Source: a virus. Taken from it: DNA of 30,034 bases. Both the position numbers and the translations under genes were made by a program. How positions within the stretch are numbered: the first letter of the stretch is position 1; the number at the start of each line of letters is the position of its first letter. The DNA lies in IMG/VR virus record IMGVR_UViG_3300025151_007596, positions 1 through 30,034 of that record; one strand, 5' to 3'. This document shows positions 2 through 20,300 of the stretch, one piece after another. The notes under the pieces were generated by a model that saw only the letters and a list, made by a program, of their open reading frames with translations, did no database searches and had not been told where the DNA came from.

Positions 2-505
2 ATTGGCTATATTAACGGCGTGGAGCAGAGCATCGAACCGAACTTCTCGGTAATGTTTGTATACGAATGTAAGAGTGGAAACTTTTACGTTGTTAATGAG
101 CAGTTTGTAAATGATATGAAAAAGGAAGGTTTATGGAGCCCTCAATTAGCGGAAGCTGTTAAGGAAGTTGACGGCGATGTTATGCTTCTTGACATTCCTG
201 AAAAATACCAAGAAAAATATAAAACTGCTTTTGATCGCGATATGTTCAAATTGATTGAATGTAACGCCGCCAGACAAAAGTGGATTGATCAAGGCATCTC
301 ATTCAACCTTTACAACAAAGGCACCAGCCTAAAATATTTAAATGATATTTATATGGCCGCTTGGGAAGCTGGACTAAAAACGACTTATTACTTGCGTAAC
401 CGAGGTGCATCAAAAGTTGAGAAGTCCACCAAAAAAGAGTATACAAAAGAAGAGCAGATAGCTTGTTCTATTGCTAACCCTGAAGCTTGCGAGGCTTGCC
501 AGTAA
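2..505 (+). CDS. nrdA: Ribonucleotide reductase class I large subunit, C-terminal part (5' cut by window edge)
   Basis: The frame is open from base 2, so this is the C-terminal piece (about 167 residues) of a longer protein whose start lies outside the window. The large subunit reduces ribonucleoside diphosphates or triphosphates to deoxy forms for DNA synthesis. Family landmarks seen: the SIEPNFS stretch, the tandem tyrosines in TTYYLRNRG that carry the radical to the active site, the KVEKST segment, and a C-terminal CEACQ tail, the swinging dithiol that re-reduces the active site. It is followed by a glycosyltransferase gene with a TAATG stop/start overlap, and nrdB comes next. The GTG at base 20 is an internal codon. 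The YY dyad shows that the radical-transfer path on this side is kept, which matters because the partner R2 lacks the usual tyrosine. Confidence 0.93.
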   Translation: MGYINGVEQSIEPNFSVMFVYECKSGNFYVVNEQFVNDMKKEGLWSPQLAEAVKEVDGDVMLLDIPEKYQEKYKTAFDRDMFKLIECNAARQKWIDQGISFNLYNKGTSLKYLNDIYMAAWEAGLKTTYYLRNRGASKVEKSTKKEYTKEEQIACSIANPEACEACQ

Positions 506-1263
506 TGGATTACAGTAAAGTTAATATATTTTATCCTGTGATTGGATTTACAGGAATGGTTCATTCTGACTACATGATGAGTACCATAAACTTGATGCTA
601 CTTTGTAGGCAAAAAAATATTAAGTTAGGTATGCGTTCTATATGGTTTGAAAGTTTAATTAGCAGAGCGCGAAATGCTTCAGTAGCTCATATGCTGGAAA
701 AAGATTATACTCATTTATTATTTGTAGATACTGATATAAGTTTTAGCGCTTATGATGTATTAAGATTAATTGATGCAGATAAAGATGTTACAGTTGGGGT
801 GTATTCCAAAAAGTATATTAGCAATCAAAAAGTAGAAATTATGGCCAATCATACAGGGTTCCCTAAAGATTGGAGGCCTCTTGTAGGTGATTTTTCCACT
901 GAAATTAACAACGAAAATTTACAAAAAGCGAAAAGTGAAAATATTGTAGAAGCTGAATACGCAGCTACAGGATTTATGCTTATCAAGAGGCAGTGCATAG
1001 AAAAAATAATAGAAGAGCGGCCGGATATAAAATATATAAATGACATTGACGGATATATGGATGCTGGAGACAATTTTTATGACATTTTTCAATGTAAGAT
1101 AAACCCCGAGACTAAAAAGTATGAAAGTGAAGATTATGGATTCTGTAAATTATGGAAGTCTCTTGGGGGCAAAATTAATGTAATTACTGATATAACTTTA
1201 AATCATCGCGGATTTAATAATTTTGAAGGAAATCTAAAACGACAAGTAAACTTTTTTAAATAA
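505..1263 (+). CDS. Phage-type family 2-like glycosyltransferase
   Basis: This 252-residue protein starts at the ATG overlapping the nrdA stop (TAATG); a TTG 18 bases upstream is less likely. It resembles the small GT-A-fold proteins common in marine phages. An N-terminal beta-alpha region is followed by LLFVDTDISF, whose DTD is the metal and nucleotide-sugar binding DxD motif, and then by DKDVTVGVYSKK, which I recognise from cyanophage-like glycosyltransferases. A later EAEYAATGFMLIKR segment and an ESEDYGFCKLW stretch resemble the acceptor and catalytic-base region of GT2 enzymes. The likely role is sugar transfer to phage DNA, a virion protein or a host surface polysaccharide; the substrate cannot be read from the sequence. 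It sits between the two ribonucleotide reductase genes, so it is probably co-transcribed with them. No transmembrane segment is evident. Confidence 0.72.
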   Translation: MDYSKVNIFYPVIGFTGMVHSDYMMSTINLMLLCRQKNIKLGMRSIWFESLISRARNASVAHMLEKDYTHLLFVDTDISFSAYDVLRLIDADKDVTVGVYSKKYISNQKVEIMANHTGFPKDWRPLVGDFSTEINNENLQKAKSENIVEAEYAATGFMLIKRQCIEKIIEERPDIKYINDIDGYMDAGDNFYDIFQCKINPETKKYESEDYGFCKLWKSLGGKINVITDITLNHRGFNNFEGNLKRQVNFFK

Positions 1264-2706: not shown

Positions 2707-3336
2707 ATGGCTAGTATAGCAGATCAATTCAAAGGCCTCCCAATTGGGACACTCATCGCGGAACCATTACTTGGCGCAGCTAAAGCGCAGGGACAACTCG
2801 CTCACACAACAGAAAATTTTATTAGAGACATCGGGTTGCAAGACGATGGCAACGGTAACCTTAAAGCTCGAACAGTAGAATTTGACTACGATGCTCCTGT
2901 TGAATCGAAAGATGGAGATGGAAATATTACAACCACAATCGAAAACAGAAAATTAAAAGTTCCTCTTCTTTCAGTTATTCAAACTCCAAATTTATCAGTC
3001 AAAAAAGCCACTGTTGACTTTGATATGGAGGTTAAGTCCAGCACTCAGGATACTAGCTCCGTAAATACTCAGACCGACCTTAGTGTTAAATATGACAACT
3101 GGTGGTCACCAGTTAAGGTAGACTTAAAAGCTTCTGTATCCACGAAAAGTGAAAATATTCGTAAAACAGATAATTCGGCAAAATATACTGTTCATGTAGA
3201 AGCCCGCGATGATGGCACTCCGGAAGGACTAATGAAAGTACTTGACATTCTTGGGTCTGCCATCCAACCTGTTGCTTCTAGCGGAGGTAGCGGAGGTAGC
3301 GGAGGCTCCTCATCGGGCGGTAGCGGTAGTAATTAA
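2707..3336 (+). CDS. DUF2589-like protein, first of a tandem pair
   Basis: This 209-residue protein matches my memory of the DUF2589 family, which has no established function. The N-terminal third is helical (LPIGTLIAEPLLGAAKAQGQ) with a conserved-looking FI.DIG segment. A beta-rich core follows, including VPLLSVIQTPNLSVKKATVDFDMEV, then KASVSTKS, YTVHVEARDDGTPEGL and a closing helix. After residue 190 there is a low-complexity Gly/Ser tail of about 20 residues, possibly a flexible linker or an exposed tail. There is no signal peptide. Its ATG lies 14 bases after a GTGTAA element. Its stop overlaps the start of the next gene by one base (TAATG), and that gene encodes a diverged relative, which suggests the two proteins form a hetero-oligomer. 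Confidence 0.68.
   Translation: MASIADQFKGLPIGTLIAEPLLGAAKAQGQLAHTTENFIRDIGLQDDGNGNLKARTVEFDYDAPVESKDGDGNITTTIENRKLKVPLLSVIQTPNLSVKKATVDFDMEVKSSTQDTSSVNTQTDLSVKYDNWWSPVKVDLKASVSTKSENIRKTDNSAKYTVHVEARDDGTPEGLMKVLDILGSAIQPVASSGGSGGSGGSSSGGSGSN
3280..3306 (+). repeat. Short tandem repeat coding for Ser-Gly-Gly
   Basis: Three 9-base units (agcggaggt, agcggaggt, agcggaggc) in frame encode the start of the Gly/Ser-rich tail of the first DUF2589-like protein. Copy number could vary by slippage without breaking the frame. Confidence 0.85.
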
Positions 3337-3812
3337 TGGCTGACGACAAATTATCTTATTCAAAATCTGGATCATTTAAAGGTGCTCCTGCGTTAAAAAC
3401 GTTCGATCACCTGATCCAGTGTCTCTATAACTCTGTAGTTTATGCTCAAAGATACGTAGAAACCGAGCATCTAAAACGGGTTATAGGGACATATTTTGAT
3501 GAATATGGTCGCCCAATTACAAAAAAAGTTGTTCTTCCTACAACTGAAGGTGATCAAGAGGTAGAAATACCTCTAATGACCTTGGCTGGACACAACCATC
3601 TTAAAATAGATAGTTTAGAGATGGAATTTGACGTAGATTTAGGCCAGTTTGAGAATGAAGATAATCATAAAAAACGCCGAATGATTGCAATGATCGGCCG
3701 TAAAGACCCTAAAAATACTTTAGCCAAGGTTAAACTTACCATAAAAAATGGCGATACCCCTGAAGGTCTTGCGAGAATAAACGATAAAATTGTAAAAACT
3801 ATCCCTACTTAA
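3336..3812 (+). CDS. Diverged DUF2589-like protein, second of the tandem pair
   Basis: This 158-residue protein has unknown function. The C-terminal half parallels the preceding gene: EVEIPLMTLAGHNHLKIDSLEMEFDVDL corresponds to its KVPLLSV...LSVKKATVDFDMEV, and IKNGDTPEGLARINDKI to its ARDDGTPEGLMKVLDIL. The N-terminal half differs: it is helical, with a FDHLIQCLYNSVVYAQRYVE segment, and lacks the Ala-rich helix of its neighbour. There is no signal peptide or membrane segment. The one-base TAATG overlap with the upstream gene implies coupled translation. The shared core and adjacency indicate an old duplication followed by specialisation. Assignment to the DUF2589 superfamily is by pattern and needs a profile search. 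Confidence 0.6.
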   Translation: MADDKLSYSKSGSFKGAPALKTFDHLIQCLYNSVVYAQRYVETEHLKRVIGTYFDEYGRPITKKVVLPTTEGDQEVEIPLMTLAGHNHLKIDSLEMEFDVDLGQFENEDNHKKRRMIAMIGRKDPKNTLAKVKLTIKNGDTPEGLARINDKIVKTIPT

Positions 3813-3818
3813 TATAAT
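3790..3818 (+). promoter_or_regulatory. Possible sigma70-type promoter before the small helical gene
   Basis: TTGTAA (3790-3795), a 17-base spacer, then a perfect TATAAT (3813-3818). Transcription would start at or very near the ATG at 3825, which would give an almost leaderless message. AT-rich DNA makes chance matches common, so this is tentative. Confidence 0.3.
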
Positions 3819-3824
3819 AAAGAT

Positions 3825-4061
3825 ATGCCAAGTGGTTATTTAAGATTAATGTTGGATTCGGCTAGGCGTTGCGCCGCCGCTACTCAAGATGCAGCAGAAG
3901 ATGCCCGAAAAGCGTCAGAAGAGGCTCGTCACGAAGCTCAAGAAATTGATCAAATGGCTCAAGATGCAGCGTCTAAAGCTGTCGAAGCCAGTGAAAGAGT
4001 CAAAGTTTTAGAGGCAAAAGTCCTAAAGCATGATAATATGGGGCAAGCTGAATCGGCTTAG
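3825..4061 (+). CDS. Small Ala-rich coiled-coil protein
   Basis: This 78-residue protein of unknown function is almost entirely helical from about residue 10 to 66. It has dense Ala with alternating Glu/Arg/Lys and heptad-like spacing (DAAEDARKASEEARHEAQEI), typical of a coiled coil. It lies 12 bases after the DUF2589-like pair and in the same direction, so it may be a scaffold, adaptor or regulator for it. Its stop overlaps the stop of a convergent minus-strand gene by three bases. No enzymatic motif is visible. Confidence 0.6.
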   Translation: MPSGYLRLMLDSARRCAAATQDAAEDARKASEEARHEAQEIDQMAQDAASKAVEASERVKVLEAKVLKHDNMGQAESA

Positions 4062-5457: not shown

Positions 5458-5678
5458 GTATACCTCAAAAAGGGTACAGAGAGCTAAAAGAAGACTGCCC
5501 TCCTGTTCCTGAAGATACATGCCCCCACATAGACAAAGCTCAGAAATATCTGGAGGGGCTAAGAGATCAAAACGAAGCACTTAGAGATATTGGTAAATTC
5601 TGGAGAGCTACAGCCATTAACTTGCTTCAAGAATGTTGTGACTTGAATCAGTATATAAAACAAATTGAAGATGAATGA
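5454..5678 (+). CDS. Small phage hypothetical protein with helical core
   Basis: This 74-residue protein uses the ATG that overlaps the upstream stop (ATGA); a TTG 12 bases earlier is less likely. After a Pro/Cys-rich start (DCPPVPEDTCPHIDKA), the rest is one or two amphipathic helices with the pattern LRDQNEALRDIGKFW, like small phage proteins of unknown function that pair a CPHIDK-type motif with a coiled coil. Four cysteines are present. It ends with an ATGA overlap into the prepilin-like gene. Confidence 0.62.
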   Translation: MSIPQKGYRELKEDCPPVPEDTCPHIDKAQKYLEGLRDQNEALRDIGKFWRATAINLLQECCDLNQYIKQIEDE

Positions 5679-5950
5679 AAAAAGGATTCACAGTATTGGA
5701 GTTATTATTAGCCATTACTGTTATATTGTTGTTAGTTTCTTTATCTCTACAAAGTTACGCAGATGCGCAACGCCAAGCTAGAATCGCTGCGTGTAAAGTA
5801 TATAGGAAGCAAATACAAACCTTTGACGAAATGCCAGAATATGACTTACCAACCATATCAGACTCCGATATTAAAGCTTTGGTGAGGACTTATGAACGAT
5901 GTTATCAATGCCACACAACAGCAAGAGTCCCTTATTATTACGCAGAATGA
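5675..5950 (+). CDS. Type IV prepilin/pseudopilin-like protein with a CxxCH motif
   Basis: This 91-residue protein opens with a textbook prepilin signal. A short basic leader (MKKG) precedes the peptidase site G4/F5. The mature F-T-V-L-E start then carries the invariant Glu at mature position 5, followed by a hydrophobic helix of about 20 residues and the usual polar helix (DAQRQARIAACK). Such proteins are inner-membrane subunits of type IV pili or type II secretion pseudopili after cleavage by a PilD-type peptidase. The globular part is tiny (about 45 residues), so it is at most a minor pilin or pseudopilin. C76-Y-Q-C79-H80 matches the covalent haem c site CxxCH in a domain that would face the periplasm; this may be chance. 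It overlaps both neighbours by ATGA. A GspC-like gene lies two genes downstream. Confidence 0.8.
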   Translation: MKKGFTVLELLLAITVILLLVSLSLQSYADAQRQARIAACKVYRKQIQTFDEMPEYDLPTISDSDIKALVRTYERCYQCHTTARVPYYYAE

Positions 5951-7089
5951 AAAAAGAAATAAAACACATTCTAGATAAAGAAAAAATTAGACAAGACACC
6001 ACCGTAGAGTTAATAGCAAGTGAAAATTTTGCTAGTCAGTCAGTTATGGATTTATGCGGAAGCATATTCACAAATAAATATGCAGAAGGGTATCCGTCGA
6101 AAAGATATTATAATGGTTGTGAGAACATGGATCAAATAGAAGACCTTGCTATAAACCAATTAAAAAATATATATAAATGCAACTACGCAAATGTCCAACC
6201 TCATTCTGGAGCTAACGCCAATACTGCTATCTATTTAGCTTTTCTTAAGCCTCAAGATAAGATACTTGGTATGGATCTAGCCAGCGGAGGTCACTTAACT
6301 CATGGAGCTTCGGTTAATATATCTGGTAAATTTTTTGAATCGCATTCTTACAAAGTAGATGAGCAAGGCTTTTTAGATTATGATAAAATAAGAGATAAAG
6401 CTCTATCATACAAACCAAAAATGATTATTGCTGGAGCTAGCGCTTATCCTAGAATAATCAATTGGAAGCTTTTTAGGGAGATAGCAGACGAGGCAGGAGC
6501 ATATCTTTTAGTCGACATGGCTCACTACTCTGGGTTAATCGCTGGAGAAGCTTATCCTAACCCAGTAGAATATGCAGATTTCGTAACAAGCACCACTCAT
6601 AAAACATTAAGAGGGCCAAGGGGAGGAATTATACTTTGGAATAATCACGAGTACACAAAGAAAATAAACTCAGCAGTATTTCCGGGAAGTCAAGGAGGAC
6701 CATTGATGAATATAATTGCAGCTAAAGCTCAAGCTTTCGCAGAAGCTTCAACACTAGAGTTTAAAGAATATTCCATGAATGTCATAGAAAATGCCCAAGA
6801 AATGTGCAAGGTTTTTACAAAAAATAAAATTAAAGTTCAGACAGGAGGCACAGATAGCCATCTAATATTAGTTAATTTATCTAATAATAAATATAGCGGT
6901 AGAGAAGCAGCAGATTTACTAGAAGCAAATAATATTACAGTAAATAAAAATGGGATACCTAATGACCCAAGGTCTTTTGTAGAAACAAGCGGCATAAGAA
7001 TAGGCACAGCCGCAGAGACCACAAAAGGACATGACAAACAATGGTTCAATAACTTAGCAAATAAAATATCAGACATATTAAACAAATGA
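5947..7089 (+). CDS. glyA: Serine hydroxymethyltransferase (EC 2.1.2.1)
   Basis: This 380-residue PLP enzyme converts serine and tetrahydrofolate to glycine and 5,10-methylene-tetrahydrofolate, the one-carbon donor for thymidylate and modified pyrimidines. The start is the ATG overlapping the previous stop (ATGA); a frame extension to 5899 has no support. Landmarks: ELIASENF (about 21-28), NKYAEGYPSKRYY, ANVQPHSGANAN, GGHLTHG (H119), DMAH (D190, H193, cofactor ring contacts), TSTTHKTLRGPRGG with Schiff-base Lys219, FPGSQGGP, NITVNKN, and SGIRIGT with substrate-binding R351. All catalytic residues are present. It is about 35 residues shorter than E. coli GlyA, mostly from trimmed ends and surface loops. 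It sits inside the overlapping operon between the prepilin-like and GspC-like genes. Confidence 0.96.
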   Translation: MKKEIKHILDKEKIRQDTTVELIASENFASQSVMDLCGSIFTNKYAEGYPSKRYYNGCENMDQIEDLAINQLKNIYKCNYANVQPHSGANANTAIYLAFLKPQDKILGMDLASGGHLTHGASVNISGKFFESHSYKVDEQGFLDYDKIRDKALSYKPKMIIAGASAYPRIINWKLFREIADEAGAYLLVDMAHYSGLIAGEAYPNPVEYADFVTSTTHKTLRGPRGGIILWNNHEYTKKINSAVFPGSQGGPLMNIIAAKAQAFAEASTLEFKEYSMNVIENAQEMCKVFTKNKIKVQTGGTDSHLILVNLSNNKYSGREAADLLEANNITVNKNGIPNDPRSFVETSGIRIGTAAETTKGHDKQWFNNLANKISDILNK

Positions 7090-7766
7090 AAAAATTGTTA
7101 CTACCCCTTTTATTAGCTACCTCCGTTTCGGCAGAGCAGAGAGACTACAGCGGAATCGCAGATAGAAACGCCTTTACCCTACTTAAAGAGGTGCCAGCAA
7201 AAGTCGAGATCCCAAAACTACTACAGAAACCGCCTATCAAACTTAATCTGACGGGTATCATAGTCAGGAGAGGAGTCACTAATGTGTATATGTTTTCCAA
7301 AGATGTCCCAAAGAGGTTCTTGACCCTGTCCTCTAAAAGGAGAACAGATAGCGGGGTAACGCTGCTGAGCGTAGAGAGAGGGTTAGTGGAAGTAGATAAC
7401 AACGGGGTAAGGGAACTTCTTTCGTTCGATACCCACAAGTTACCATCCACAATTACATTACCTAAACTAAATACTAAACCCACGGTGATAAAAAAGAACT
7501 CTAAAGACGATAAAGATAAAAATAAGAATATTGCGCCTCCTGCCCCTAAACCCTCTGTCGTAAAAGTCCCTTCACGCCGACCTAAAATAGATCCAAAGAT
7601 AATTCAGAAAGGGTTAGAGTACATAGATAGGATAGACGACAAAGAAAAGAGGGAATACATCCTTAAAAGACTAGAAGGACTTCAGAGCGGTCAAAATAAT
7701 TTGGATAGAAAAATTGACGCCAACGAAAGACGCCGTCAATATGATGAGCGTCGCCGAGATAAATGA
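7086..7766 (+). CDS. Exported GspC-like (type II secretion HR-domain-like) protein
   Basis: This 226-residue protein begins with a clear signal peptide (MKKLLLPLLLATSVSA, cleavage near residue 17), so the mature protein is periplasmic. Residues about 20-120 (ADRNAFTLL, then LNLTGIIVRRGVTNVYMF, and VERGLVEVDNNGVRELLSF) follow the layout of the GspC/PilP homology-region domain: a LxLTGI strand, an inserted value-like strand, and a closing VxVxNNGxxExLxF strand. The ADRNAF opening resembles proteins I associate with Verrucomicrobiota secretion or pilus operons. The C-terminal half is Lys/Pro-rich and then a very charged helix (about 165-226), with no transmembrane helix as in true GspC. ATGA overlaps join it to glyA and to the next gene. 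The family call is by pattern and uncertain. Confidence 0.5.
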   Translation: MKKLLLPLLLATSVSAEQRDYSGIADRNAFTLLKEVPAKVEIPKLLQKPPIKLNLTGIIVRRGVTNVYMFSKDVPKRFLTLSSKRRTDSGVTLLSVERGLVEVDNNGVRELLSFDTHKLPSTITLPKLNTKPTVIKKNSKDDKDKNKNIAPPAPKPSVVKVPSRRPKIDPKIIQKGLEYIDRIDDKEKREYILKRLEGLQSGQNNLDRKIDANERRRQYDERRRDK

Positions 7767-13131: not shown

Positions 13132-13962
13132 TTACCTTAAAATGAAAGATGTTAAGGCAAAATCAATACTAGCATTGTCTGTCGCTCCCCCTTGAAATGA
13201 TTCCGAAACCAATAACATATCATTAAAAGAATACTTTAATAATTCTATGTTGCTATTATTTTTTTTCAAAGTTATCGTGGTATCTTGAAAAACTGTTTGC
13301 TCTGGTACAAATCTCATATTTTTTATCTCATAATCGTCTGGTTCAATGCTAAAATTTACATCTACTCTTACAGGATTTCCAGCAATCACCCCTGTGGGAG
13401 TAGCAATTCCCAATGCGTAAAGAGGTATTCTAGGGGTAGTAATACTTACGCTAAAATTATTCACACGGTTAGTCTCAAAAGTATCTAGGTTTATCTCCAT
13501 GGAGCTATAACTAGGTATATTTAGGGTCGTTGGGTAGGAGTCTGTAGGCACATTAGCTAAAACTCCTGTACCGAACTCTCCGTATATGGTCGAACTGGTA
13601 GAAATTTGAGGTATTTCTCCAATAGAGCAGCTTGCAGAGTAAGAGTCTAGATACCCTTCAGTAAAAATAAAACTCTTCTCTCCATGCTCTACTACCCCGC
13701 TAAAAGCTATGTCTCCCGTGAAATTTTGCAAAACATCCACTGAAGTAACCGGGGCGCTAGGAGAAGCGGTGTGCGTAAATAAAGAATTAATGCTCAAACT
13801 AGCAGATTGAGGCCCTTCTGGAGCAAATTGTATGCTGTTTATACCTAAATTCCTCAAAGGAGCGGCTACTGAATCATATGACGCTGAAATAGACTGTACT
13901 CCTTGTATCCCACTTCCGTTAATAGTGATACTTTCAGCCTCTCTTGTAATTCTTCCTAACAT
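13132..13962 (-). CDS. Tail-tube-like structural protein, paralogue 1
   Basis: This 276-residue protein is the first gene of the minus-strand structural block. N-terminal ITINGSGIQGVQSISASYDS and PLRNLGI resemble the start of siphovirus tail-tube proteins, where a GvQSvs strand follows the N-terminal arm. GYLDSYSASCSIGEIPQIST aligns with the same block in the two downstream paralogues. The C-terminal third (TITLKKNNSNIELLKYSFN) is beta-rich. There is no membrane or signal segment. Its ATG faces the M-like tail gene across a 63-base divergent control region. Of the three, this one looks most like a tube protein, but the identity of the major tail protein is not settled. Confidence 0.62.
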   Translation of the reverse strand: MLGRITREAESITINGSGIQGVQSISASYDSVAAPLRNLGINSIQFAPEGPQSASLSINSLFTHTASPSAPVTSVDVLQNFTGDIAFSGVVEHGEKSFIFTEGYLDSYSASCSIGEIPQISTSSTIYGEFGTGVLANVPTDSYPTTLNIPSYSSMEINLDTFETNRVNNFSVSITTPRIPLYALGIATPTGVIAGNPVRVDVNFSIEPDDYEIKNMRFVPEQTVFQDTTITLKKNNSNIELLKYSFNDMLLVSESFQGGATDNASIDFALTSFILR

Positions 13963-14025
13963 TACCTTATCTTTATTTTACACTCTTTTTTATGTGTAAT
14001 ATAATAAATAAAGGAATAAGGAGAA
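13963..14025. promoter_or_regulatory. Divergent promoter region between tube-like and tail-tip genes
   Basis: This 63-base spacer is the main strand switch of the tail region. On plus, TTTACA (13977-13982), a 17-base spacer and TATAAT (14000-14005) make a strong sigma70-type promoter. AAGGAG (14018-14023) sits just before the ATG at 14026. GTGTAA occurs on both strands as an inverted pair (TTACAC at 13978-13983 and GTGTAA at 13994-13999, ten bases apart), each copy reading toward its own gene. The pair could be an operator or part of divergent promoters. The minus-strand gene has AAGGTA directly before its ATG. Confidence 0.5.
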
Positions 14026-14586
14026 ATGGCAAATAGCATATATGACGTTCCAATTCATAATTCAAGTAAAACCTACTTGAAAAATTCCATTGTTTTCGTC
14101 AAATCTAACATCGGAGACAGTGGAATCCCTAAAGAAATCAAATATTATTATGCTTTAGAGGATGTGCCAGCAGGACAAGCAATTACTGCTACCCAATATT
14201 GGGGAGGATATGTAACTGCTCAAAATGGTGAATCTATTCCCAACTTTCTTTGGACTCCTTCTTACAATCTTTCAACTTCTCATAATCCTAGAGTTAACTC
14301 CGTAGTTTTTGGTAACGGATACGAACAAAGAATACCAGACGGTATTTATACAGGCTTAATTACCTTAGATGTTTCTTTCGATATGAGGAGTGAAAACGAA
14401 ACGCGTGCTATCATACATTTTCTACGAACTCGTAAAGGGGCTGAAAGTTTTGCAATTAAAAACTTACCTGAGATTTATGCAGACTCAAGTTATACTAAAA
14501 GGTTCGTTTGCCCTTCTTTTAATAGTAATTTTGCTTTCCACAATAATTACTCTATAAAAACTCAATTTGTAGAAACAAACAATTAA
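14026..14586 (+). CDS. Phage minor tail protein, lambda gpM-like, with N-terminal CBM-like module
   Basis: This 186-residue protein has residues about 72-182 matching the phage minor tail protein (gpM) family: FLWTPSY, then NPRVNSVVFGNGYEQRIPDGI, the hallmark FGxGYxQR...DGI block, then an FLRTRKGAESF stretch. gpM binds the tail-tip complex beneath the tape measure. The first about 65 residues are extra compared with lambda gpM. With YDVPIHNSSKTYLKNSIVFV, KYYYALEDVPAG and QYWGG, they look like a small aromatic CBM5/12-type module. It starts the plus-strand tail-tip operon behind a good promoter and AAGGAG. The L-like gene starts one base after its stop. Confidence 0.82.
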   Translation: MANSIYDVPIHNSSKTYLKNSIVFVKSNIGDSGIPKEIKYYYALEDVPAGQAITATQYWGGYVTAQNGESIPNFLWTPSYNLSTSHNPRVNSVVFGNGYEQRIPDGIYTGLITLDVSFDMRSENETRAIIHFLRTRKGAESFAIKNLPEIYADSSYTKRFVCPSFNSNFAFHNNYSIKTQFVETNN

Positions 14587-14587
14587 G

Positions 14588-15859
14588 ATGCCGGATTATA
14601 CGACAGCAGACTCAGAAAGAGCTAAATCCTCAATTAAGTCTTTAAACTTTGAGCTTACTAACTTGACCCCTTCGGCGATGGTTACAATGTTCGAGATAGA
14701 CTTAAATAAACTACTCGAAACTAAGGAAATCACTTTGGGAGAAGATGCAACTCAAGTCGGTTTCCCCGGTGATGTTAATGATGGAATTTTAAGATTCCAC
14801 AACAACATAAAAGTTTTTAACTCTTTTATTATTTGGCAAGGGTATGAATACTATCCAGCCCCGATAATTGCAGAAGGTTTTGAAGCTACTACTAAAGGCA
14901 CACTACCACGCCCCACTTTAAGTTTGGCCAGTCAATCTCAGACAGGAATAGACCAACTAGCTCTTCTCAGAAACGAGATAAGAAAATTTGGAGATATTAT
15001 CGGAGCAAAAGTCACTCGCAGACGGACGTTTGCAAAATATCTAGATCGTAGGAACTTTGTGGGGGCAGGTGCAGGAGCAACCTTTAAAAATATAGGCAAT
15101 ATACCCATTCCACAAGGTTACGAACCCGATCCTTACGCCGAGCTCCCCAAAGATGTATATTTTATAGAAAGAAAAGACACAGAAAACAAATCAATACTCA
15201 GTTATGAACTTTCTTCTGTGTTGGATCTAGAAGGCACAAAACTACCCAAGAGAATGATTGTGGCCGACAAGTGTGTTTGGCAATACCGCGGACTGGGATG
15301 TTGGTATCAAGACGGTAAGAGTGATGTAATTAATGCGGGAACCGCAGAAGAAAAAACTGTAGTTCCGCTGTTAGAGAAAGCTGAATTAGCTAGTTTACCC
15401 GGCGTTCCATCTAACCTTAACTTGCAACCTTCAGAAGCTACTGGCTTACCTAAACAAGCGGTACCCGTGGCTAACGACAAAGACGAAAGAATATCAACTT
15501 TATTAGGAGGTACTGGCCCAGCCCTCGCTGTAAAAGATGATTTAGGCCTGTGGGACAAGTCAACAACATACGAAAAAGGTGACTACTGTTATCTACTGAA
15601 AGAAAATATAAAATATTACTTTGTCTCTAAAGGTGCTATTGGTGAAGGCGCAGCAGCCATTCCCAACTTAGGAAAAGTTCCACCTAATTCTGAATTTTGG
15701 ATAGCTGACGAATGTTCCAAATCTCTTACTGGTTGCAGAATGAGATGGGGAGCCGGAACAGTAGGTAAAGTTGAACCCGGAGCAGGTTGCCCTATTCAAA
15801 AAGGAGAACTCCCTTATGGCGGTTTTCCTGCAGCTAATAAAATGTCCAGACAACAATGA
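14588..15859 (+). CDS. Phage minor tail protein L-like, Fe-S cluster protein with large insertion
   Basis: This 423-residue protein compares with 232 in lambda gpL, the tip protein that binds a [4Fe-4S] cluster and caps the central hub. The four cluster cysteines are kept with lambda spacing: C229 and C238 (KCVWQYRGLGC, nine apart), then C376 and C383 (ECSKSLTGC, seven apart). The family's closing LPYGGFPAANK motif follows. Between the pairs lambda has about 22 residues; here there are 137 (239-375). The last part of the insertion, about 320-375 (LWDKSTTYEKGDYCYLLKEN, ending FWIADEC), resembles a CBM5/12 carbohydrate-binding module. The N-terminal half (FELTNLTPSAMVTMFEIDL) is typical of gpL. 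It overlaps the K-like gene by ATGA. Confidence 0.9.
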   Translation: MPDYTTADSERAKSSIKSLNFELTNLTPSAMVTMFEIDLNKLLETKEITLGEDATQVGFPGDVNDGILRFHNNIKVFNSFIIWQGYEYYPAPIIAEGFEATTKGTLPRPTLSLASQSQTGIDQLALLRNEIRKFGDIIGAKVTRRRTFAKYLDRRNFVGAGAGATFKNIGNIPIPQGYEPDPYAELPKDVYFIERKDTENKSILSYELSSVLDLEGTKLPKRMIVADKCVWQYRGLGCWYQDGKSDVINAGTAEEKTVVPLLEKAELASLPGVPSNLNLQPSEATGLPKQAVPVANDKDERISTLLGGTGPALAVKDDLGLWDKSTTYEKGDYCYLLKENIKYYFVSKGAIGEGAAAIPNLGKVPPNSEFWIADECSKSLTGCRMRWGAGTVGKVEPGAGCPIQKGELPYGGFPAANKMSRQQ

Positions 15860-16596
15860 TTTTACAAGAATCCATAAAAGAATCTATTAAAAATCATGCT
15901 TTAGAAGATCAGTCTAAAGAATGTTGTGGTATTGTGTTAGAAAAAGATGAAAATCTGAAAATTTTCAGATGCACCAATGTATCTGAAAAAGCGGACAAGC
16001 ATTTTTCAATAAGGCCTTTGGATTATGCTTTAGCTGCTGATGAAGGAAGGGTAAAAGCTGTATATCATTCTCATAATTCTAACAACGATAAATTTTCCCC
16101 GAATGATATGTTAAATAGTAAATCTCATAATTTACCATTTATACTTTACTGCTCTAAAAAAGATTCTTTCAGTTTTTTTGATCCTAACAAGAGTAAGACT
16201 TTTCTTTATGATCGCGTATTTAAGATAGGGGAATCGGATTGCTATACTGTTATAAAAGAGTATTATAAAAACTTAGGAATAAAGCTTTCGGGGGAAAATA
16301 AGTTAGGAGATGACTGGCATAAGAAAAACCCCGCCTTGATACAACAATTATTTGACCTTAATAAAAATAATCCTAATTTACCAATAATCGAGCTTCCTCC
16401 TTCTAGCTTACTAAAAAAACACGACGTAATAGTATTTGAATTTATAAAAGGTAAAGGGCCTAATCACGTTGCAGTTTTTCTTGGGGATGGAAACATTATG
16501 CATCATCCACGGAACAAATACTTGTGTATTGAACCTTTAAACAAATCCCTCACTAAAACAATCTGTAAAATATATAGACATGAGCAATTTAGTTAA
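15856..16596 (+). CDS. Tail tip protein K-like: JAMM/MPN plus NlpC/P60 peptidases
   Basis: This 246-residue, two-domain protein has the lambda gpK architecture. The N-terminal Mov34/JAB domain has E22 (ECCGIVL) and the metal motif H71-S-H73-x7-S81-x2-D84, all present. The C-terminal NlpC/P60 domain has the nucleophile C129 (GESDCYT), the catalytic His204 (NHVAVFLGDG) and a following His216/217. The family role is tail-tip assembly together with cleavage of peptidoglycan or other peptide or isopeptide bonds during entry. It overlaps L by ATGA and I by 17 bases, the standard lambda K-I arrangement. Confidence 0.92.
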   Translation: MILQESIKESIKNHALEDQSKECCGIVLEKDENLKIFRCTNVSEKADKHFSIRPLDYALAADEGRVKAVYHSHNSNNDKFSPNDMLNSKSHNLPFILYCSKKDSFSFFDPNKSKTFLYDRVFKIGESDCYTVIKEYYKNLGIKLSGENKLGDDWHKKNPALIQQLFDLNKNNPNLPIIELPPSSLLKKHDVIVFEFIKGKGPNHVAVFLGDGNIMHHPRNKYLCIEPLNKSLTKTICKIYRHEQFS

Positions 16597-17350
16597 CATA
16601 AAAGTTCACGGTGTTCTAGCAGAACAGCTCGGTCAGTCCGAATGGAACTTGGCCGCTAAAAACGTAAGCCAAGCAGTAAGAGGAGTAGAATGTAACTCTA
16701 AAAAACTTTACAAGTCACTGTTAGAAAACGATAAAAAAAATATAAAGTATAGGGTACTTATTAATAAAAAAGATTTCCAAATAGAAGAAGGTAAAGACCC
16801 TAATACTATTGAAGGTTTAAAATGCTCAGAACTTGCGATGTCTAGCAGTAAAATAAAAACAATAGATATCGTTCCAGTTATAGAGGGTTCTGATGATTTT
16901 ATGTCTATTTTAACTATTATAATAGGAGTTGCTTTAATTGCTGTTGGTGGATTTGGTTTAATGGGGGTAACTGCTATGGGAGCTGGTGGCGCCATGGGAA
17001 CAGCTTTAGTTTTGGGCGGTATAGGATTAGTAGCGGCGGGAATAACTAACCTACTAACCCCAATGCCAGAATTTGGAGATTTTAACGAAATAGAAAGAGG
17101 GGGAGCTAAAGCTTATTTATTTAGTGGGCCTGAAAATACAGTAAGAGAAGGTGGCCCTGTATTTGTAGGCTATGGAAGACTTTTAGTTGGGAGTCATGTG
17201 GTTCAATCTGCTAGCGATGTTGTTGATGCTTCTGCAGAAATTGCGCCAAAAGATACATGGGGTGAAACTAAATACGGTTTATTATACAATATACCTAATG
17301 CAGGTAAACTATTACAGTCGCAAGTTGATACTTGGGGAACTCAAGGATAA
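16580..17350 (+). CDS. Tail assembly protein I-like
   Basis: This 256-residue protein sits in the I position between K and J. An N-terminal ubiquitin-like domain (VNIKVHGVLAEQLG through about residue 100, ending IDIVPVIEG) is followed by a Gly/Ala-rich hydrophobic stretch (about 108-160) that could insert in a membrane. Then comes the family's FSGPENTVREGGPVFVGYGR motif (181-200) with LLVGSHVVQS. In lambda, gpI works in tail-tip assembly and is not in the finished tail. The overlap with K and the three-base gap before the J-like gene support one operon. Confidence 0.88.
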   Translation: MSNLVNIKVHGVLAEQLGQSEWNLAAKNVSQAVRGVECNSKKLYKSLLENDKKNIKYRVLINKKDFQIEEGKDPNTIEGLKCSELAMSSSKIKTIDIVPVIEGSDDFMSILTIIIGVALIAVGGFGLMGVTAMGAGGAMGTALVLGGIGLVAAGITNLLTPMPEFGDFNEIERGGAKAYLFSGPENTVREGGPVFVGYGRLLVGSHVVQSASDVVDASAEIAPKDTWGETKYGLLYNIPNAGKLLQSQVDTWGTQG

Positions 17351-17353
17351 AAA

Positions 17354-20300
17354 ATGGGAAGCAAGAAAAAACAAAAAGAAGCACGTCCAGTAGTAACTGA
17401 TTTATCAGCAGTAAAAGTCGGCGATAACTACGTTGTATCGCGCGGCTTTGCAGAGACAGTAGATTTAATCAGTGAAGGCGAAACTGAAGGTATAGTAAGC
17501 GGGAATTATTCTTATCAAGGTGAAGCTAACGTAACTGGTTATCAACGAGTAGATTTCGCCAACTACACAGCTACAGGAGACTCTCTTACATCCAATTTAG
17601 ACCTAGGTTTTCTTCAGTCTATTTATTGGAATGACGTACCTCTTGTTGATGAAGGGGGCTTCTATAACTTTCCTGCTATCAACGTTGAAACAGTTAACGG
17701 GTCAGCTGTTGGAAATATCCCATCTTTAAATAGTGAAATGACTAGCTATGCTGGAATGACTTCTAGCGATTTCCTAGACTTAAGCGTAGCTCGACAGATA
17801 GGCGAAAGACTTTACGGCCCAGAGATACAAGGGGGAGAAGAAACTCCTACAGATACAAAACCCGCCACTTTAAAACCGGGAGTAACGATAGATAAATACT
17901 CAAAAACATATACCGTTCTAAATAAAGAGTTATCTAAAATAGAAGTTAACGTAAAAATACAAGCTTTATTTGAAAGCATTCAATCCGGTCCAAAAACTTA
18001 TCAAAAAACCAGCGAGTTAAAAAAATGCAGAAAAGCTTCTACTGGCTTTGGCGACACTAAAGCTCGTACTATTGAGTACAATATTTACTACCAACCTATG
18101 TTTGACGTTAGGTTTGAGCAGTCCACTACAACTTCAGGAAGCAATGTGGTAACCCCGAGGGACACTACGGGAGATGGTAAATGGCTTGGCCCTGTTAAAG
18201 AAAAAGTTTTAGGTAAAGTAGATGACGTATATATAAGAAAAACTCTTATAGATGTTTCAGCGTTTAATTATAGAGAAACACCGGGATTTGAAGGATGGAG
18301 AATCAGAATAGTTCGCATAACTCCTGAATCTTTAACTTCATTTTTAAAGAATATGAGTTTTGTAGATTCTATCGTTGAAATCTATGGAACAACTTTGCGT
18401 TACCCTTATTCGGCAATGGTCTACTCTCAATTTGACGCAAGATCTTTTAGCCGTATACCAGCAAGAGCTTACGACACGCGTTTAATTAAGGTAAAAGTTC
18501 CTAATAACTATAACCCTATTGCTAAAACTTATGGAAACAGTTCAAGTACCACAATAGAAACTCGAGTAGGATGCGAACATTTTTACAGTGCTAGTAAACA
18601 GCATTGGATAAGAAACAATTCGGGTTCAGGAGGAGGTTGGGACGGAGAGTTTAAAAGGACAGACGATAACTTGGCCCCAGCACTTAGAAAAGGGGAATAT
18701 GTTAGAGAATGGACTGATAACCCTGCTTGGTGTTTTTACGACCTAATGACTAACCCTCGTTATGGACTGGGAGAGTACATAGAAGAAGATAGAATAGATA
18801 AATGGACTTTATATGAAATTGCTCAGTACTGTGATTGCCTAGTTCCTGACACTTATGGAGGGTTAGAGCCGCGATTTACTATTAACTATATTATAACTAC
18901 TCGTGAAGACGCTTTTAAAGTTCTAAATGATTTGACTTCTATATTTTTAGGTATCGCTTATTACGCAAACGGAAACGTATTCGCAGTACAAGACAAATAT
19001 AAAGACGCTGTATATCAATTTAACAATTCCAATGTTCTAGAAGGCAACTTTACCTACTCCAGTTCTTCAAAAACTGCTCGTCACAGTGTTGCGGTAGTTA
19101 GGTACAATGACAAAAAGAATTTATTTCAGCCCGCTATTGAATATTTGGAAGATGAAGAAAGCGTAAGAAGATATGGTATAAGAGAAATAGAAACTACAGC
19201 TTTGGGCGCTACTAGTCGCGGTCAAGCTCGTCGTTTTGCTAAATGGATACTATCGAGCGAAGCTCAAGAAACTGAAACGGTAAGCTTCTCGGCAGGGCAA
19301 GAAGGCGCTTATATAATGCCCGGAGATGTAATTCAAATCTATGATAACTTTAGAACATCTTTAAAATACAGCGGCCGAACAAATGCTGTTATACCTTTAA
19401 CAGCAAATTATACTAATGCAAATCCAGCGGTTGTAACCCCAGCAATATCTAACAAATTTAACAGTATAATTATTGATCAGGCTTTAAACTTTACTGATAA
19501 CACTCTTTATAAATTTTCATTATTAACTCCAACATACAATACTAACACGGGAGACGCCAATGAAATTAGAAGACCTCAGATACAAAACTTGTTATTTAGC
19601 GGCGCTCATACTACTACCATAACAGGAAATTATAGATCTGATTTAAGCGGCGTTTGCACTCAAATATATTTTAATACTGGCACAGCTTTCGGCGGAACTG
19701 GTAATCAATTTGATTTTGATAATTATGTTATAACTGGATATACAAATACAGGTGTCCAAACTGCTGGTAACGATATACCACCACTATTACCTGCAGAGGT
19801 AACTAGCGCCCCTTATTCCGGAGGGTGTTTTTCGGGTGAAAATTTAATATGGAGTGTTGAACCTAATGATCCTAATGATGCAGAGGTTATCAGCGGAAGT
19901 TACTCTAACTATAAAGTTGTAAATATCGCCGAGAATGAAGGTACTTATGATATTTCTGCGTTAGCTTACTCTACAGGAAAATATGACGAAGTATATAACT
20001 CAGCTAATTTGACTTCTACCCAAGCTGTTAAACAACCACTTTTTGCAACAGGAGATTATCGTAATGTAGCTCAAACAAGTTTTTACCACCCAAGACAAGC
20101 ACTTCATGTGGTTAAAGGTAACGCTTATTCGGAGTCAATTGGCGGTAACGACCCAGTTTATCATACTGTAGAAGTAACAATCCCCCAAGCCGGTTATGAA
20201 GTCAGTGTCACTTTTGATGAAGATAAAGATGCTTACAATTATCAAATAATAAAAAATGAAGAAGCTCCATACGATATAAATTATGTAATTGGTATACAAA

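Follow-up and report, generated by a model that had tools for sequence, protein, structure and literature searches.

What do two adjacent genes of the DUF2589 family do in a marine virus of bacteria, and what do their relatives do in bacterial genomes? The window, the whole stretch of DNA that we analysed, is a virus record of 30,034 nt (IMG/VR IMGVR_UViG_3300025151_007596). Its left part encodes a ribonucleotide reductase small chain, an inorganic pyrophosphatase and a serine hydroxymethyltransferase, and its right part holds a tail block. The two genes, A and B, and a small third gene, C, are placed between the reductase and the pyrophosphatase genes, and in the window's clade the neighbours of A/B are genes of nucleotide and one-carbon metabolism. 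The features of the locus are as follows.

2707-3336, plus strand: gene A, DUF2589 protein of 209 aa, A-type paralogue (PF11655 E 4.9e-33; relatives in viral and bacterial loci).
2743-2835, plus strand: A residues 13-43, long conserved N-terminal helix, GLPxxxLIxxPLxAAxxAQ (AF2 helix H13-43; invariant columns).
3073-3141, plus strand: A residues 123-145, conserved amphipathic beta-hairpin with Ser/Thr/Lys-rich flanks, predicted from hydrophobic alternation (AF2 confidence low here).
3220-3231, plus strand: PEGL motif of A, preceding the C-terminal helix (sequence; alignment columns 172-175 invariant or nearly so).
3271-3333, plus strand: Gly/Ser-rich tail of A, residues 189-209, unconserved among relatives (sequence; alignment).
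3336-3812, plus strand: gene B, DUF2589 protein of 158 aa, B-type paralogue (PF11655 E 5.1e-17; profile relation to A).
3759-3770, plus strand: PEGL motif of B, preceding the C-terminal helix (sequence; alignment).
3825-4061, plus strand: gene C, Ala-rich predicted coiled coil of 78 aa (17 loci, always after B; heptad pattern).

The stop codon of A and the start codon of B overlap by one base (TAATG), and 12 nt separate B from C. The core ends in DDGTPEGL in A and in NGDTPEGL in B. Coordinates and sequences thus agree with the first-pass annotation, which had described these reading frames, their overlap and the shared core ends. Compared with 16 relatives, A, B and C have dN/dS values of 0.007-0.11 where saturation permits an estimate. 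Since these values are low, all three are real genes under strong purifying selection, and a coding artefact is ruled out.

Several other genes of the window are recorded here in their own right. At 487-1263 (plus strand) lies a conserved phage gene of unknown function (phrog_1574, E 8e-35) whose match to a glycosyltransferase model is weak (Anp1, E 4e-5, below cut-off). A pilin-like N-terminal methylation segment is encoded at 5675-5950 (plus strand; N_methyl E 0.003, below cut-off), and a relative in the same clade (locus L185) encodes a 326-aa prepilin-type protein (N_methyl E 8.5e-8). The gene at 7086-7766 (plus strand) specifies a 226-aa protein with a signal-peptide-like start that is conserved in the clade and in two loci (L203, L204) lies just upstream of the A/B pair. 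By eye it resembles PilP/GspC; Pfam and PHROGs gave no match.

Pfam profile searches place both proteins clearly in DUF2589 (PF11655), over nearly the full model of 154 positions. A scores 115.1 bits across model positions 1-153 and B 63.1 bits across positions 2-153, against a curated cut-off of 23 bits. The profiles of the two families align with each other across 165 columns (hhalign probability 98.9, E 1.4e-17), and we read A and B as ancient paralogues. The first-pass annotation had suspected both the family and the relationship, and it had also stated that the family has no established function. The literature that we searched bears this out, with no function and a lone passing mention; it describes neither the division into A and B, nor their pairing, nor the genes linked to them. 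PHROGs and NCBIfam hold no family for A or B. Searches of PDB sequences with A, B and a family of ~90-aa proteins described below returned nothing relevant, the matches of A being Gly/Ser linkers in antibody fragments rather than relatives. In BFVD a single protein matched, at 40% identity, and it is evidently a family member.

AF2 monomer models give A and B the same layout: a long helix at the N-terminus leads into four strands, and the C-terminal helix comes after PEGL. Confidence is modest (pLDDT 69 and 71, pTM 0.53 and 0.50, for A and B respectively). Foldseek and VIA searches with both models found no match of weight (best Foldseek E 0.53, VIA Z <=3.8), the hairpin region having low pLDDT. 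Within the segment of residues 123-145, which contains a Gly/Pro turn, hydrophobic alternation reaches a mean z of 2.1 in A versus 0.25 in B, and 92% of 71 A sequences exceed 1; B has no counterpart of this amphipathic pattern. Beta pore-forming proteins of the aerolysin type carry an amphipathic hairpin with Ser/Thr-rich flanks inside a beta core, and A is like them in this respect, although the same pattern also fits soluble strands. Unlike them, A has no profile or fold match, begins with a long helix and needs a partner paralogue. The hairpin could insert into membranes or form a ring, or could simply add two strands to a soluble sheet.

We next asked what is conserved around the two genes. 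IMG/VR holds at least 374 stretches with relatives of A, of which the best 80 were used. Of 81 viral loci, 79 have A and B side by side (A-B in 24, B-A in 55), and the two exceptions, with A alone, are fragments in which A lies at or near the end of the stretch. A further 82 loci came from a collection of bacterial species (78), plasmids (4, one record being present in both sets and counted once) and a fecal phage contig (1). Two or more neighbouring DUF2589 genes occur in 79 of these mostly bacterial loci, with a median gap of 64 nt. Their order is mostly B-A and sometimes A-B, with A-A in many Bacillota and Treponema; the long A proteins of these two groups bear extensions only, in which a fusion search recognised no domain. 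In two of the three exceptions (L174, L179) a common protein of 245-290 aa follows that looks B-like by eye. Likewise, scans of whole genomes found PF11655 confined to such clusters, with at least two copies in 26 of 29 bacterial genomes and exactly two in each of ten virus records. The bacterial hosts belong to Pseudomonadota, Thermodesulfobacteriota, Bacillota, Spirochaetota, Bacteroidota, Myxococcota, Campylobacterota, Verrucomicrobiota and Ignavibacteriota. Searches of isolate phage records gave a match to A in just one unverified fecal contig, and no match to B. Together the results show that the conserved unit is a two-gene A/B pair of near-obligate adjacency. Because the pair is obligate, a hetero-oligomer of A and B, built on the shared helix/four-strand/helix core, is likely, in line with the hetero-oligomeric assembly that the first-pass annotation had suggested.

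A single branch (support 99/95, 100% of bootstraps) in a tree of 71 A proteins separates the 15 phage sequences from the others, and the group sits among bacterial sequences. With the A proteins of phages in one supported clade, the pair is old in phages. On the simplest reading, it would have entered phages once and descended there for long, with a change of gene order. That one old phage lineage has kept it, in records that span about 34 to 200 kb, would suit a structural protein of the virion or one carried in the particle and ejected from it. However, the window pair lies outside the tail block, PHROGs has no such family, and the bacterial relatives lie outside tail gene sets in the loci that were read, so we consider a virion role quite improbable.

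The third gene is a different matter. C is present in 17 loci, all of the window's clade and each time directly after B. Its product contains 23% Ala, 15 of 17 heptad a/d positions are Ala, Ile, Leu, Val or Met, and it narrowly misses the Ala-zipper model of Pfam (22.9 bits, cut-off 23.1). Bacteria instead have an unrelated, unnamed family of ~90 aa in 61 of the 82 other loci (consensus DLxxVxxVKRVxVGxxNP...YHIGFxRKPxWL), which has no Pfam or NCBIfam entry. Its 22 copies in the 29 genomes all lie, by coordinates, at DUF2589 loci (one ~2.5 kb off and on the other strand), and it is absent from the ten phage records scanned. In a second bacterial type a zinc-ribbon protein adjoins A and B. Since C is limited to one clade, and bacteria have a ~90-aa or zinc-ribbon gene in its place, the third gene varies by lineage. 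The first-pass annotation had named partners that do not stay together in relatives as grounds for rejecting its three-gene module. Judged in this way the module of three genes fails, holding in the window's clade only, and the module of A and B stands.

Other neighbours recur around the bacterial genes. A multi-pass membrane protein (cluster c4) is found near the pair in loci of Xanthomonas, Amantichitinum and Bacteroidota (L118, L119, L124, L141, L144, L163), and proteins of a single cluster recur beside the DUF2589 loci of unrelated bacteria (L126, L152, L158, L183); the neighbour matches to PatG_C/PatG_D are probably theirs. The Vibrio plasmid pVDT1 (L257:12415-13938, 14939-18294) encodes a TcdA/TcdB-type glycosyltransferase and an HlyD/peptidase-ABC exporter a few kb from its DUF2589 pair. 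Marinomonas MED121 (L258:9171-9800, 13961-15427) has a zinc-ribbon gene with its second DUF2589 pair, and a tail-collar-like gene and others separate this pair from a reb cluster.

The distance between that second pair and the reb cluster is ~6 kb, and this one genome raises the reading that A and B form a polymer of the R-body type, a coiled protein ribbon. Reb clusters likewise encode small cytoplasmic proteins as tandem copies, and their loci too have a scattered, horizontal distribution. However, RebB occurs in just four of the 29 genomes and is near the pair in one of them, with unrelated genes between. The RebB profile of Pfam is unmatched by DUF2589 proteins, A, B and C giving no match at E up to 10. 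We rejected R-body identity on these grounds and hold it to be scarcely credible.

A strong association emerged from the enzymes that neighbour the bacterial genes. Among 201 bacterial neighbours scanned with Pfam, all within ~2 kb of the cluster, the matches listed include Pesticin, Phage_lysozyme, GH108, GH25, Glucosaminidase, Amidase_2, CHAP and holin families, with only two matches to Phage_holin_4_1. The matches listed for a comparison set of 105 genes 4.5-8 kb away include one Muramidase. Six hydrolase families were located in the 29 bacterial genomes. Of their 48 copies, 13 have a DUF2589 cluster no more than 2.5 kb away, versus 0.075 expected (Poisson P 3e-25, which is too optimistic since the families were partly picked after being seen nearby). 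The effect is far larger than this bias of choice. The 13 copies are spread over 12 genomes, and more than half of the 29 genomes have none of the six families within 2.5 kb. For GH108, five of nine copies, in four genera, are near DUF2589. Phage-island context alone was rejected as the cause: integrases, which mark genomic islands and served as a control, are not comparably near, with one within 2.5 kb among about 150 of 257 matches listed. These data show that bacterial DUF2589 loci are strongly linked to exchangeable peptidoglycan hydrolases of unrelated families, a linkage that is new here.

Among phages, one clade carries a lysis cassette next to the pair. Recombination genes of the YqaJ/RecT type flank the pair on one side there, and spanin-like and endolysin-like genes, encoded on the other strand, flank it on the other. 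The latter endolysin-like gene matches phrog_33083 (E 1e-14) and phrog_3000 (E 2e-35), and the same endolysin family occurs in three of the 29 bacterial genomes, in two of them 63 bp upstream of A. Two further phages have phrog_3000 at a distance of 30-54 kb from the pair, and five others gave no match to it. The window's clade has neither lysin nor holin beside the pair; the NlpC/P60-JAB protein of the window (15856-16596) is in the tail block and not near the pair.

The linkage bears on the role that the first-pass annotation had favoured, an intracellular scaffold, compartment or counter-defence complex acting during infection. The metabolic genes around the window pair, and the lack of a transmembrane stretch in A, B and C of the window, are compatible with that role. 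However, positive evidence for it is absent: the PADLOC defence models gave no credible match (the best, B to the JetA model, has E 0.018 and is not significant), and there is no fold match. It leaves the wall enzymes of the bacterial loci unexplained; the gene neighbourhoods in bacteria suggest the cell wall instead. We now consider it unlikely.

The account that we put first, tentatively and at less than even confidence, is that A and B form a cytoplasmic hetero-oligomer that works with a wall-cutting enzyme in passage across the envelope, during release or lysis. A and B would function only jointly, as an oligomer on their common core, and the lack of a transmembrane stretch in the window proteins fits a cytoplasmic location. 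The oligomeric and possibly membrane-active element would be the conserved amphipathic hairpin of A; B, which has no hairpin, would be A's partner. Together with a wall hydrolase the complex would let something cross the cell envelope, much as type 10 secretion systems and phage lysis cassettes do. In phages the pair would serve around lysis or exit, and C may be a helical accessory of its clade. Type 10 secretion is exemplified by TtsA, a muramidase for the release of typhoid toxin. TtsA has been described as a secretion muramidase (PMC6996933). The DUF2589 loci are like type 10 secretion and phage lysis cassettes, in which the gene of a lysin such as a muramidase adjoins genes for something that has no signal peptide, in that hydrolases lie beside DUF2589 genes in the relatives named above, bacterial and phage. 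They are unlike them in that the window pair has no adjoining hydrolase, and in that no holin lies at the window locus, with few at other loci. Neither A nor B resembles any known holin, spanin or lysin.

Archaeoglobus is an archaeon that has no murein. Because it has a DUF2589-related cluster, AF0414-AF0417 (PMC3949148), and because the window's clade has no lysin nearby, wall hydrolysis cannot itself be the core task. For this reason the main rival is a carrier or chassis: A and B would bind or deliver diverse toxic enzymes, with wall hydrolases as the commonest cargo, and would not themselves breach the wall. The archaeal cluster accords with such a carrier, as do TcdA/TcdB-type glycosyltransferases and an M91 metallopeptidase near bacterial pairs, together with nuclease-like and papain-like genes there that were read by eye. 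Delivery systems typically combine a fixed core with variable cargo. However, delivery components such as a spike or a sheath are not conserved beside the pair, and the enzymes other than hydrolases each occur in few loci. We regard a carrier as rather unlikely. Returning to envelope passage, its fullest form would place the A/B pair at the centre of an undescribed machine, common to several bacterial phyla and to one old lineage of marine phages, in which an oligomeric, perhaps pore-like, complex and an exchangeable wall hydrolase release proteins or phage; we offer this as a speculative possibility, doubtful as it stands.

The literature searched contains no description of the pairing, of the ~90-aa family linked to it or of the link to hydrolases. 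A family that was only a name gains its first testable lead: DUF2589 is almost always two fixed paralogues, with a third unnamed protein in many bacteria and with wall-cutting enzymes nearby far above chance. A name that had no function thereby becomes a concrete question, whether A and B bind each other and whether they regulate the hydrolase linked to them, carry it or depend on it. Should this be so, bacteria and phages would have a widespread additional route across the cell envelope.
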